Assembly (NCBI RefSeq): GCF_913773635.1
Contig: NZ_CAJYGQ010000008.1
Coordinates: 248,001-312,000, forward strand
Reading direction: 5' to 3'
Length of the DNA stretch: 64,000 nt
DNA from: an uncultured Mucilaginibacter sp.
GTDB taxonomy: Bacteria > Bacteroidota > Bacteroidia > Sphingobacteriales > Sphingobacteriaceae
Of this stretch, positions 29,502 through 35,288 are shown in pieces (within the stretch, counting starts at the first letter, position 1; each line of letters starts with the position of its first letter). The position numbers and the translations under genes are program-made. The notes below the pieces were generated by a model. It did no database searches and was not told where the DNA came from. It saw only the letters and a list, made by a program, of their open reading frames with translations.

Positions 29502-30416
29502 TCACTTCGCCGTTAACCATCCGTTCGCATCCATCCAATGCTTACACACCTCAAACCATTCATCCTTGGTGGTTTTGTTTACCAAACCGTAACCATGACC
29601 ACCGGCCTGGTAAATATGAAGTTCGCCCTTTACACCAGCTTTAATCATGGCCTGGTAAAACATTATGCTGTTTGCAACAGGAACAGTTTTATCATCTTCT
29701 GAATGAACCAAAAACGTTGGTGGAGTTGAAGGCGTCACCTGCTTTTCATTAGAGTAAAGATTAACTTGCTCTTCAGACGGGGTTTTGCCAATAAGGTTAT
29801 CTTTTGAACCACGGTGAGTTTCGGGCCCGAAGGTAATTACAGGATAAATAAGCATACCAAAGCTGGGGCGCAAGCTTATGTTATCTTTATTATCAATAAC
29901 AGCCTTATTAAAATGCGTAACTGCGGTTGATGCTAAATGCCCACCAGCCGAAAAACCAATGATGCCTACTCTTGCTGTATCAATACCCCATTCTTTAGCA
30001 CGTTGGCGCACCAGTTGAATTGAACGTTGCGCATCCTGCAGCGGACCTATAGATTTATCCTGCATGATGGCATCGCTGGGTAAACGGTAGGTAAGCACAA
30101 ATGCTGTAACACCAGCATCGGCAAATTTCCTAGCCACGGCCCAGCCCTCATGATCAATAGCCAGGCGGGCATAACCACCACCCGGACATACAATAACGGC
30201 AGCACCATTAGCCTTGCCTTTTTCAGGAAAAAACGGTGTAAGCGCAGGATCGGTAACCATACCTACCCTGTTACCTTCATTTTTTTCAGCATAACCAGCT
30301 GGAGCAGCTTTTGAATTAGGTACACCTTTTGGATAAAGTTTTATAGCCTGGTTATTTTGCGAAAATACTGAAGCCGTGATAGTCACTGACATTAATGCAG
30401 TAAAAAATAATTTCAT
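29502..30416 (-). CDS. Secreted alpha/beta hydrolase (esterase), copy 1
   Basis: 304 residues with a signal peptide (about 1-19). Alpha/beta-hydrolase of the BD-FAE/acetyl-xylan-esterase type: oxyanion loop CPGGGYARL (about 77-85), nucleophile elbow GFSAGGH, acid in HSEDDKTVPV and catalytic His in GGHGYGL. Likely removes acyl groups from carbohydrates in the periplasm. It is clearly a paralogue of the next gene upstream, sharing the motif order and long near-identical blocks such as KSIGPLQD and ANSIMFYQAM. The Imm32-like gene follows. Confidence 0.85.
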   Translation of the reverse strand: MKLFFTALMSVTITASVFSQNNQAIKLYPKGVPNSKAAPAGYAEKNEGNRVGMVTDPALTPFFPEKGKANGAAVIVCPGGGYARLAIDHEGWAVARKFADAGVTAFVLTYRLPSDAIMQDKSIGPLQDAQRSIQLVRQRAKEWGIDTARVGIIGFSAGGHLASTAVTHFNKAVIDNKDNISLRPSFGMLIYPVITFGPETHRGSKDNLIGKTPSEEQVNLYSNEKQVTPSTPPTFLVHSEDDKTVPVANSIMFYQAMIKAGVKGELHIYQAGGHGYGLVNKTTKDEWFEVCKHWMDANGWLTAK

Positions 30417-30509: not shown

Positions 30510-31430
30510 TTACTTAGCAGCAAGCCAACCATTTGCATCCATCCAGCGGGTGCAGGCATCAAACCATTGTGTCCTGGTTGTTTTATTTATCAACCCAAAA
30601 CCATGACCACCTGCCTGGTATAAATGCATTTCGCCTTTAACTCCGGCCTTTACCATTGCTTCATAAAACATTATGCTGTTAGCTACCGGAACAGATTTAT
30701 CATCCTGCGCGTGTACGATGAAAGCTGGCGGGGTAGCAGCAGTTACTTGCTTTTCGGTAGAAAAGAAGTCCATTTTTTCTATAGATGGATTTTTACCCAA
30801 CAAATTTGTTTTGGAGGCACGCCGCATTTCGGGCCCGAATGTTATTGCCGGGTATATAAGTATACCAAAAGCTGGTCGTAAATTAATGCTTTCCTTATTG
30901 TCTATTACTGCGTTTCTGAAATGTGTTATAGCCATTGACGCTAGGTGCCCTCCTGCCGAAAAACCAACCACTCCTATCTTTGCTGTGTCAATTCTCCAAT
31001 CCTTAGCCCTTTGATGCAATAACTGCACGGCACGTTGCACATCCTGTAATGGCCCAATTGATTTATCGTTCATTATATCATCGCTCGGCAGGCGGTAGAT
31101 TAGTACAAAGGCGGCAACACCTATCTCATTAAATTTACGGGCCACATCATACCCTTCATGCCCTGTAGCTAAACCACTGTAACCGCCGCCCGGGCAAATT
31201 ACAACAGCGGTTCCGTTTGCTTTATTTTTCTCAAGAATAAATGGTATAAGTGTAGGCTCGGTAACCATACTCACCATATTATTATTGTTCTTTTGCACAT
31301 AACCGGCTGGAGCAGGTTTTGAATTTGGGATGCCGCCGGGGTAAAGTTTTATAGATTGGTTACCTTGGGCATGTGAGTTATGCATAGCTATGAAACAAAA
31401 AAAGCACAGGACTAAAATGGTTCTTCTCAT
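30510..31430 (-). CDS. Secreted alpha/beta hydrolase (esterase), copy 2
   Basis: 306 residues from the ATG at 31430, chosen because MRRTILVLCFFCFIAM begins a good signal peptide; an ORF extends seven codons upstream. Motifs as in copy 1: CPGGGYSGL, GFSAGGH, HAQDDKSVPV and GGHGFGL. Tandem duplicate of the gene at 29502-30416, with the same order and direction and a 93-base gap. Confidence 0.85.
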   Translation of the reverse strand: MRRTILVLCFFCFIAMHNSHAQGNQSIKLYPGGIPNSKPAPAGYVQKNNNNMVSMVTEPTLIPFILEKNKANGTAVVICPGGGYSGLATGHEGYDVARKFNEIGVAAFVLIYRLPSDDIMNDKSIGPLQDVQRAVQLLHQRAKDWRIDTAKIGVVGFSAGGHLASMAITHFRNAVIDNKESINLRPAFGILIYPAITFGPEMRRASKTNLLGKNPSIEKMDFFSTEKQVTAATPPAFIVHAQDDKSVPVANSIMFYEAMVKAGVKGEMHLYQAGGHGFGLINKTTRTQWFDACTRWMDANGWLAAK

Positions 31431-31496
31431 TGGCAGAGTGTTGATAACCAAATCTAACCCTATACTTTATAATAAGCAAGATGTGTATTGATTGAT

Positions 31497-31737: not shown

Positions 31738-32830
31738 TTAATTGCTTGGTCCGCCAAACTCCATCAGGTAAGCCTTCAGGAACTCGTTCAGGTCGCCATC
31801 TAAAACGGCCTGGGCGTTTGAGGTTTCATGATCTGTACGAAGATCCTTAACCAATTTGTAAGGATGCAGTACGTAGTTACGTATTTGTGAGCCCCACTCT
31901 ATTTTCTTTTTACTGCCTTCAATGGCATTGGTAGCTTCCATGCGCTTACGCATTTCAATTTCGTATAACTGCGATTTTAGTAAGCGAATCGCGTTATCCT
32001 TGTTCTGCAACTGCGAGCGTGACTCCTGGTTTTTTATGATAATACCCGATGGTTTGTGGTATAAACGTACGGCAGTCTCTACCTTGTTCACATTCTGTCC
32101 ACCGGCACCACCCGAACGGAAAGTTTCGAACTCAATATCGGCCGGATTGATCTCTATCTCAATGGTATCATCAACCAATGGGTACACATAAACCGATGCA
32201 AACGAGGTATGGCGCTTAGCATTAGCATCAAACGGCGATACGCGTACTAAACGGTGCACGCCGTTTTCACCTTTTAAATATCCGTAGGCAAAATCGCCTT
32301 CAAATTGCAGGGTTACGGTTTTTATACCTGCTACGTCACCTTCCTGGTAATCTTGCTCGGTAACCTTATAACCGTTTTTTTCGCCCCACATAATATACAT
32401 ACGCATAAGCATGCTGGCCCAGTCGCAACTTTCGGTACCACCTGCACCTGCAGTTATCTGCAATACGGCGTTCAGCTGATCTTCCTCGGCCGATAGCATG
32501 TTTTGGAACTCCAGATCTTCAATTACTTTTAACGATGCGTTAAACTGCTCCTGCATTTCAGGTTCGCTCACATCGCCGGCCTGGTAAAACTCGTATAGTA
32601 CGCCGGTATCTTCTACACTGGCCAACACTTTTTGATAAGCATCAGTCCAAACCTTTTTAGCTTTTATAGATGCCAGTACTTTTTCCGCCTCTTTAGGGGC
32701 ATTCCAAAAATCCGGACCAATGGTTATTTCCTGCTCCCGGGCTAGTTCTTCAAGCTTGTTATCAATGTCAAAGATGCCTCCTCAGGGAAGCTGTTCTATC
32801 CCTCAAGTCTTGTACTTGTTCTTTAGTCAT
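31738..32830 (-). CDS. prfB: Peptide chain release factor 2 with programmed +1 frameshift
   Basis: RF2 recognises UGA and UAA and releases the finished protein. The gene starts at the ATG at 32830. The first 20 codons ([20 protein letters not shown]) end in an in-frame TGA (32768-32770). Skipping one base continues as [13 protein letters not shown] for another 343 codons, giving 363 residues, normal for RF2. The recoding site is AGGAGG CAT CTT TGA C. Later motifs are SPF (recognition tripeptide, in [10 protein letters not shown]) and GGQ ([15 protein letters not shown]). Frameshifting normally lets RF2 regulate its own amount. The small membrane protein gene follows directly. Confidence 0.97.
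32768..32782 (-). promoter_or_regulatory. prfB: RF2 autoregulatory +1 frameshift site
   Basis: On the minus strand: AGGAGG (32777-32782), three bases (CAT), slippery CTT (32771-32773), stop TGA (32768-32770) and C. Layout and spacing equal the classical prfB site, with a perfect internal Shine-Dalgarno sequence. Confidence 0.95.
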
Positions 32831-32899: not shown

Positions 32900-32923
32900 C
32901 TTATTATCTGCAAAGTTTATGGT

Positions 32924-33361
32924 TTAGGCAACCATCATTTGGTTAACCAGTCCGTTGAGGTCGGCCCGGTTACCATTTAGCTGAGATAGCATAGTGCCTA
33001 AAGCAAATTCTTTGGGTTGTTCACTGTTAGTTTCCTGAACCAATTGATTCATTACGGCAGGTATAAGTGAGTTTGCTGCATCGTGAGCCGCAGTCATATC
33101 AATACTGTAAAATTTGTTAAGCCTGTTAGCAAACTTATTACTCATGCTGCTTACCAGGTTTTGGTTATACGAACCAGAAAACTGGAAAAACTTAATGATG
33201 TCATTCACACGTCCCGTCTCCATCGAATTTTTCAGTACATCAATAATTGAGCTTGAAGCTTCGGTTAACACAGCCTCGCGTGATGCGGCAGGTATAACCG
33301 GGTTGTTCATAATTGCCATACCGGCATTATTTTTCACCAATAAAAAAAGTTTTTCAAACAT
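32924..33361 (-). CDS. Hypothetical cytoplasmic protein
   Basis: 145 residues, largely helical, no signal peptide or membrane segment. Notable stretches: SREAVLTEASSSIIDVLKNS, SMSNKFANRLNKFYSID and a C-terminal FALGTMLSQLNGNRADLNG resembling small helical repeats. I do not recognise the family with certainty; it looks conserved and has its own terminator. Divergent from pgi across 280 bases that carry an unusual repeat array. Confidence 0.65.
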   Translation of the reverse strand: MFEKLFLLVKNNAGMAIMNNPVIPAASREAVLTEASSSIIDVLKNSMETGRVNDIIKFFQFSGSYNQNLVSSMSNKFANRLNKFYSIDMTAAHDAANSLIPAVMNQLVQETNSEQPKEFALGTMLSQLNGNRADLNGLVNQMMVA

Positions 33362-33496
33362 GGCTTTTAATTTTTTAGCAGATTAATAAAATGTTCGGTT
33401 TATTACTTGATTTTTATCAATAAATCAAATATAACGAAACTTTGTTTTAAAAATCAAAATATCAAACAAAATATTTTGAAAATATGACAATCAGAA

Positions 33497-33564
33497 AGTG
33501 TATTAAAAACACTAAGATTTAGTGTAATTTTTACAGTAAGATTCAGTGTATTATTTACGCTAAG
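33497..33564. repeat. 24-bp periodic repeat array in the pgi upstream region
   Basis: AGTGTA occurs at 33497, 33521 and 33545, and ACNCTAAG or ACAGTAAG at 33509, 33533 and 33557, all exactly 24 bases apart. The central unit is a perfect inverted repeat ACACTAA-GAT-TTAGTGT (33509-33525). It looks like repeated operator sites for a dimeric regulator rather than a random AT-rich stretch. Confidence 0.6.
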
Positions 33565-33611
33565 CCCACCGGACCGGATAAAAAATATGATGTAAAAGTG
33601 GTTTAAAACGT

Positions 33612-33619
33612 TACTTTTG
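33612..33619 (+). promoter_or_regulatory. Candidate -7 box of pgi
   Basis: TACTTTTG matches TAnnTTTG, 22 bases before the ATG. No good -33 TTG is visible, so an activator may be needed; the repeat array ends 47 bases upstream. Confidence 0.4.
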
Positions 33620-33626
33620 GGCGTAA

Positions 33627-35288
<1,662 letters not shown>

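Follow-up and report, generated by a model that had tools for sequence, protein, structure and literature searches.

According to the study that describes it (PMC4666351), AraR of Bacteroides is a repressor of arabinose genes that is released by L-arabinose, and its arabinose pocket comprises R34, R86, H131, F36, G48 and F49. The crystal of AraR with DNA reported there contains the motif GTGT-N7-ACAC, at which the contacts 'define GTGT DNA sequence motif', and the dimer covers 25 bp (PMC4666351). AraR sites are given in the same study as 21-bp semipalindromes, two of which stand in tandem before araM in most genomes, mostly 3 bp apart, resulting in a step of 24 bp (PMC4666351). The NrtR regulators of NAD metabolism belong to the same protein family and have NAD genes as targets, in contrast to the glycolysis genes linked to the sites analysed here. 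HexR and Cra are central-carbon regulators of Proteobacteria whose glycolytic and gluconeogenic targets and palindromic sites are similar to those found in this study, by analogy only; they are members of the RpiR and LacI families, respectively, and differ in this from the NrtR family.

Here, we describe an array of repeated sites in a window of 64,000 nucleotides from an uncultured Mucilaginibacter sp. As judged from sequence comparison, this array is, with a probability of about 0.8, a ladder of three operators for a factor of the NrtR/AraR family, most likely the protein encoded at G000:C6:192259-192942 of the same genome (the C6 protein). A search of openly accessible papers, judged by title and start of abstract, listed no NrtR-type regulator of glycolysis and no dedicated glycolysis regulator for these soil bacteria.

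The array between pgi and the divergent gene

The 280-bp intergenic region in question separates pgi, encoding glucose-6-phosphate isomerase (positions 33642-35288 of the window, forward strand; PF00342), from a divergent gene for a protein of 145 amino acids (32924-33361, reverse strand). The motif AGTGTA is located at 33497, 33521 and 33545, and a second mark, present as ACACTAAG, ACAGTAAG and ACGCTAAG, at 33509, 33533 and 33557, respectively, both with an exact spacing of 24 bases. Tandem Repeats Finder reported a single array at 33497-33564 with a period of 24, 2.8 copies and 75% matches, in agreement with the sequence-only reading, which had noted that each mark recurs three times at this step. 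The array consists of three 17-bp inverted repeats AGTGTA-N5-TACACT between 33497 and 33561, set at 24-bp steps and each with one mismatch. Unit 1 (33497-33513, AGTGTATTAAAAACACT, continued by AAG to 33516) is closest to the divergent gene, unit 2 occupies 33521-33537 (AGTGTAATTTTTACAGT, also continued by AAG), and unit 3 (33545-33561, AGTGTATTATTTACGCT, continued by AAG to 33564) is closest to pgi. Three sites of the intergenic region show at most one mismatch to AGTGTANNNNNTACACT. Dinucleotide-preserving shuffles of the 280 bp yielded one or more such sites in 11 of 20,000 cases and two sites in none of 20,000, and these shuffles together with the conservation in relatives rule out a chance origin.

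The perfect palindrome ACACTAA-GAT-TTAGTGT pointed out earlier is indeed present (33509-33525), formed by the junction of units 1 and 2 and not as a separate unit. The steps between units in the pgi arrays of relatives are 25 bp in 17 cases and 24 bp in nine, with single steps of 26 and 27 bp and one gap of 48 bp. Since this variation breaks the junction palindrome, the latter was discarded as the unit; GTGT-N7-ACAC, the inverted repeat contained in each repeat, is most likely the functional one. The 61 units tabulated from pgi loci have the consensus rGTGTwnnnnnwACACTAwG; they were gathered with an N7 pattern, so that N7 is built into this table and its support comes from the AraR crystal. 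Within the genus, half-sites are conserved and spacers vary. The array had also been called helix-phased, a description that does not hold, given that a step of 24-25 bp corresponds to 2.3-2.4 turns. As this step is near the 25 bp covered by the AraR dimer in the crystal, it most likely reflects the footprint of a dimer rather than helical phasing.

Conservation in the genus and beyond

The pgi gene was detected in 99 of 100 genus genomes, and 30 loci including that of the window were fetched, 29 of which had an upstream region long enough to be counted. Two or three units with at most two mismatches from GTGTWNNNNNWACACTAWG were found upstream of pgi in 17 of these 29 loci, one unit in five and none in seven. 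A strict tandem two-unit pattern is present in 49 of the 100 genomes, and the reversed pattern used as control gave no match. According to a comparison of coordinates, the tandem pattern lies directly upstream of pgi in 48 of the 49 genomes, the exception being G002:C1:1799763. The 145-aa gene is kept next to pgi in the genus, and the named relatives that carry both the array and this gene are Mucilaginibacter. In two loci (L021 and L022) prfB adjoins pgi in place of the 145-aa gene, and no unit is present; five others (L024, L029, L031, L032 and L041) have the 145-aa neighbour and no unit at up to two mismatches.

Thus, the regulator-type repeats proposed for the region between pgi and the divergent gene recur upstream of pgi in relatives. 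Conservation at this position, one half of the test suggested for them, is seen within the genus and is limited to it: the pgi upstream regions of other genera contained no exact site in any of the 30 loci fetched, and a site with one mismatch in two. From these sequences, it seems that pgi became part of the regulon only in this genus.

Operator type and tandem-motif scan

The GTGT-N7-ACAC semi-palindrome, the tandem arrangement and the 24-bp step that characterize NrtR/AraR-type operators are all found in the array, with one mismatch per unit to AGTGTA-N5-TACACT; in these three respects it is like the AraR operators of Bacteroides (BT0354, araM promoter). When GTDB genomes were scanned for the tandem motif, at least 119 loci were obtained, for which the nearest gene among the tested types was recorded irrespective of taxon. 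Among the 119 loci listed, this gene belonged to the NrtR family in 34, in 32 of them within 167 bp and in several phyla; it was pgi or the 145-aa gene in 25 and araM in 16, and in 44 none of the tested genes occurred within the DNA of the locus. Thirteen Bacteroides/Mediterranea loci were examined, of which nine adjoin an aldose-1-epimerase gene, interpreted as araM on the basis of the order of genes in L187, and two a sugar-transporter gene. When the neighbours in 16 scan loci were translated, about six loci of other phyla were seen by eye to adjoin NAD-type genes, and a Pfam check of two such neighbours identified NadA in L145 and a nicotinamidase-like protein of the isochorismatase family in L118. 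In other phyla, the tandem GTGT-N7-ACAC arrangement stands beside NrtR-family genes with neighbours of this kind.

Given that NrtR-family genes are common beside the tandem motif, the array can be regarded as a frequent, though not exclusive, signature of these regulators, and its motif is assigned by sequence to the operator type of NrtR/AraR proteins, in which a Nudix and a winged-helix domain are combined. Since NrtR relatives with other roles (NAD, arabinose) have the motif as well, it identifies the family with more certainty than the individual paralog.

Two further observations were made on repeats of this kind. In two family genomes, G146 and G109 (loci L043 and L044), a version of the array with about three copies lies between a gene for a repeated secreted protein and an amylase-like gene, both named by eye, and in G146 an NrtR-family gene is situated approximately 13 kb from it on the same contig. 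In Hymenobacter, tandem GTGTATCGACTACACT repeats (L170:3273-3354 and L185:5875-5912) are situated near a Rep_3 initiator gene, recognized by Pfam in L170 and by eye in L185; they are probably iterons and thus another use of a similar palindrome.

The candidate regulator

Searching the window's own genome with AraR of B. faecis revealed three proteins of the NrtR family, at C3:95296, C6:192280 and C10:181828. The C6 protein exceeds the Pfam cut-offs (in brackets) for NUDIX with 45.1 (21.1), for NrtR_WHD with 100.2 (27) and for AraR_C with 58.9 (23.8), and matches the AraR structure 5bs6 at 6.9e-51. By inspection its Nudix signature is degenerate, with RILYELTGL where REUxEExGU is expected (signature as given in PMC4666351). 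It keeps the AraR residues D178, K179, R180, N181, R183, K184 and R205, and thereby five of the six DNA-contact residues (K179, R180, N181, K184 and R205), the sixth, K204, being F. An alignment of 104 sequences shows the recognition helix DKRN-x-RK unchanged throughout the 61 C6-type proteins and in 36 of the 40 array-linked scan proteins, AraRs included; the other four differ at one position. The paralogs have other helices: C3, which keeps K179, R180, N181 and K204, carries S at 183 and R at 184 (DKRN-x-SR-type), and C10 differs at 178-180, 183 and 184 (HRGN-x-QR-type). In the FastTree phylogeny, the C6 orthologs form a group (support 0.72) adjacent to AraR plus C3 (0.999). At position 67, Glu is found in 28 of the 40 scan proteins, in contrast to Leu in 47 of the 61 C6-type proteins.

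While the recognition-helix residues are the same as in AraR, the pocket of the C6 protein is not. R34, R86 and H131 are kept, and F36, G48, F49 and G89 are replaced by D, D, L and R, respectively. The changes at F36, G48 and F49 make L-arabinose, from sequence, an unlikely effector. The C6 gene is not clustered with arabinose genes; it is surrounded by gapA, a sugar-dehydrogenase-like gene and two genes of kinase type. ADP-ribose was weighed as effector because position 89 is R in the window's own protein, as in NAD-type relatives; against it, 48 of the 61 C6-type proteins have Q at this position, and the C6 clade groups with AraR. The C3 gene adjoins an FGGY sugar-kinase gene, ribulokinase-like by eye, and its product is probably the true AraR.

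Full-length C6 orthologs (at least 72% identity) occur in 95 of the 100 genus genomes, with a partial one (78%) in G091; G009, G015, G018 and G065, which are 58-86% complete, gave only weaker matches to the regulator. Outside the genus, 39 of 40 genomes gave a match at 1e-30. The C6 gene itself is preceded by a site that deviates from GTGTWN5WACAC at no more than one position in all 30 genus loci and, within a 330-bp window, in 29 of 30 loci fetched from other genera, 26 of them exact. Together, these comparisons suggest that the C6 protein is most likely the regulator that binds the array.

The putative regulon

The C6 gene is located between kinA-gapA and kinB. It is divergent from kinA and gapA, which probably form one transcript, given the gap of only 10 bp between them. 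The resemblance of kinA and kinB to BadF/NagK-type kinases stays below the curated cut-offs, whereas the matches of gapA, fbp and pyk exceed theirs. The 250 bp upstream of these and other genes were scored for the site, excluding upstream regions shorter than 150 bp, which left 29 of the 30 fetched loci for pgi and for pyk, and treating genomes as unrelated, and the number expected from shuffles is given in brackets. Sites were found upstream of pgi in 23 of 29 loci (1.3), of pyk in 22 of 29 (0.4), of fbp in 18 of 30 (0.8) and of kinB in 25 of 26 (1.05), where one locus, L243, is probably the paralog kinA. As controls, prfB (0/26), fabF (0/27), rnhA (0/22) and yfcE (1/25) were scored. The kinA row (30 loci, eight with a site) also contains the paralog and was not used, and two control rows of n=2 were set aside as too small, namely dtd (0/2) and ugd (2/2, sharing the kinB site region). 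At fbp, a version with two mismatches was seen by eye in seven more loci at the place that the site has in the 18, and nothing in five.

Of the 61 tabulated units, 45 were used to construct a site model, R1. Its best match in the window's own genome is unit 1 (E 0.008), itself part of the training set, and the matches outside pgi are individually weak (E 0.06-9.7). Five of these (E 0.06 to 2.3) are recorded here for their positions: G000:C1:66711 is flanked by a glgX-like gene and an FGGY-kinase gene, C5:356387 lies before a fucose-isomerase-like gene (below the Pfam cut-off), C6:552963 before a glycosyltransferase gene and, by eye, C10:252038 between murA and a DUF4290-like gene and C13:95122 before a gene for an RNA-binding (RRM) protein.

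Promoters and the divergent gene

The -7 consensus of Bacteroidota promoters is TAnnTTTG. A -7 box of pgi, TACTTTTG, was located at 33612-33619 on the forward strand, with unit 3 centred 59 bp away from it, and one of the divergent gene, TATATTTG, at 33426-33433 on the reverse strand, 72 bp from the centre of unit 1. The divergent promoter has a -33-like box, TTTTGA (33454-33459, reverse strand), 20 bp from its -7 box. The lack of a -33 box at the pgi promoter, remarked upon in the sequence-only reading, was borne out by the consensus of 32 aligned loci, in which none is conserved. Unlike the arrangement at AraR targets, the sites of the array are upstream of the pgi -7 box.

Distances were determined in loci with at least two units, using the best TAnnTTTG box on each side, chosen blind to the 72-bp value. 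Where the divergent -7 box is perfect (21 loci), the nearest unit is without exception centred 71-73 bp from it (sd 0.56), and in 16 further loci this distance is 72-73 bp; imperfect boxes in L016 and L040, at 111 and 120 bp, were excluded from the sd. On the pgi side, the distance is 55-111 bp in 20 perfect-box loci (sd 15; up to 62 bp in 14) and 54-75 bp in 13 further loci (up to 57 bp in 11), and L013, L014 and L144, where the units number three or four, show such a short distance as well. Seven upstream regions identical to earlier ones were left out of the two further sets. Hence, the distance of the array to the divergent -7 box is more rigid than that to the pgi box, which makes the 145-aa gene at least as likely a target as pgi, and a fixed divergent side with a variable pgi side points to the addition of extra units toward pgi.

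For the 145-aa protein itself, no family was assigned. It is predicted to be all-helical, and its AlphaFold model is helical and of modest quality (mean pLDDT 76.6). A Foldseek search with this model gave no match at E ≤0.001, and a Pfam scan nothing above cut-off. Among 21 homologs, weak Pfam matches were scattered over ATPgrasp_TupA (three, best 7.2e-4), Rib_mS39_PPR (three), AHSP (three) and DUF937 (one). Elsewhere in the window, two neighbouring genes at 29502-30416 and 30510-31451 are similar to each other and alpha/beta-hydrolase-like by eye, probably as a result of tandem duplication. The prfB frame (31738-32628) begins without the usual N-terminal part. Release factor 2 is known to have a programmed frameshift, with which this absence is compatible.

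Site positions at other promoters differ. In four of the seven loci that reach the start of kinA, a perfect -7 box is present with the site centred 48-50 bp upstream; the site is at 27 bp in one and far in two. At pyk, which is without a perfect -7 box, the centre of the site precedes the start codon by 35-60 bp, and at fbp the core site begins 20-24 bp before this codon in the 18 loci with a site. The upstream positions at pgi, the divergent gene and kinA fit activation better than repression, whereas those at fbp and pyk fit repression better, and we cannot reconcile them into one sign of regulation.

Discussion

We propose that the C6 regulator would act as a dimer, using a Nudix-like domain for the effector and a winged-helix domain for DNA binding, each dimer gripping one GTGT-N7-ACAC unit with the helix Asp-Lys-Arg-Asn-x-Arg-Lys. 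Adjacent dimers would sit edge to edge at steps of 24-27 bp, near the 25-bp footprint of AraR, each turned by approximately 100-140 degrees. The same regulator is predicted to bind at its own promoter and at kinA-gapA, kinB, pyk and fbp, and, on account of these sites, the C6 protein is a candidate regulator of both glycolysis and gluconeogenesis. By analogy with AraR, a small metabolite that binds the Nudix domain might release the protein from DNA. From the positions of the sites, the protein may activate the promoter of the divergent gene and/or pgi and repress fbp, a tentative assignment to which we give slightly less than even odds.

Several points speak against parts of this explanation, among them the following: the minor-groove contact K204 is not conserved in the C6 protein; other genera are without an exact pgi site although the regulator is present, which renders the link to pgi genus-specific; and even in the genus, where the regulator is widespread, no unit precedes pgi in 7 of 29 loci and just one in 5 of 29. 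An unlikely, yet the most serious, alternative is that operators of the NrtR family serve the divergent 145-aa gene only, with pgi as a bystander. The nearly invariant distance to the divergent -7 box (71-73 bp, against 55-111 bp for pgi) and the missing units in L021 and L022, in which pgi is without the 145-aa neighbour, are in line with it. However, the pgi side is also fairly fixed in most loci, the five loci that have this neighbour and no unit are difficult to accommodate, and the same site at pyk, fbp and kinA-gapA fits a glycolytic target. That the array is bound by one of the paralogs instead, C10 or C3, is improbable. All three proteins are of one family, and C3 even keeps the K204 that C6 lacks, but the recognition helices of both differ from that of C6, no site with fewer than two mismatches exists in the 300 bp around the start of the C3 gene, and it is the C6 gene that has a site upstream in nearly all loci of other genera.

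A regulator from an unrelated family that recognizes a similar palindrome is slightly less probable still. GTGT-N7-ACAC is short, and the 44 of 119 listed tandem-motif loci without a tested gene, some of them near the plasmid Rep_3 initiator genes of Hymenobacter, would be consistent with such a protein, whereas the NrtR-family genes within 167 bp of 32 listed loci in several phyla and the presence of this very motif in the AraR crystal (PMC4666351) argue for the NrtR family. Hardly any weight falls on a neutral minisatellite or an RNA element in place of operators. The head-to-tail repetition with a fixed period could suggest one, but half-sites are kept while spacers differ across the genus, the array would lie outside the transcripts expected from both -7 boxes, and an Rfam search of 32900-33700 gave no match at gathering thresholds, on which ground an RNA element was rejected. 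Taken together, a ladder of operators bound by the C6 protein remains the preferred reading, and the class of the regulator sites, left unnamed in the sequence-only reading, can now be given as the NrtR/AraR family on the basis of the motif, the linkage in the scan and the recognition helix.

The kind of operator described here is known, the branch of the regulator is unstudied, and the set of predicted targets is new: pgi, pyk, fbp, gapA and kinase-like genes are linked to the sites, in contrast to the arabinose targets of AraR. It is conceivable, albeit rather doubtful at present, that a Nudix-type regulator serves as a central switch between glycolysis and gluconeogenesis in the Sphingobacteriaceae, unlike the NAD and pentose roles of its family, and that in Mucilaginibacter it drives two divergent promoters from an expandable ladder of 24-25-bp steps, the end of which is locked 72 bp from one of them. 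With the array, one particular protein can be named as candidate regulator, together with its putative operator sequence and a few promoters as likely targets, and the 145-aa gene is given a regulatory context. The known roles of the family concern NAD and pentoses, to which the array suggests that glycolysis may be added.
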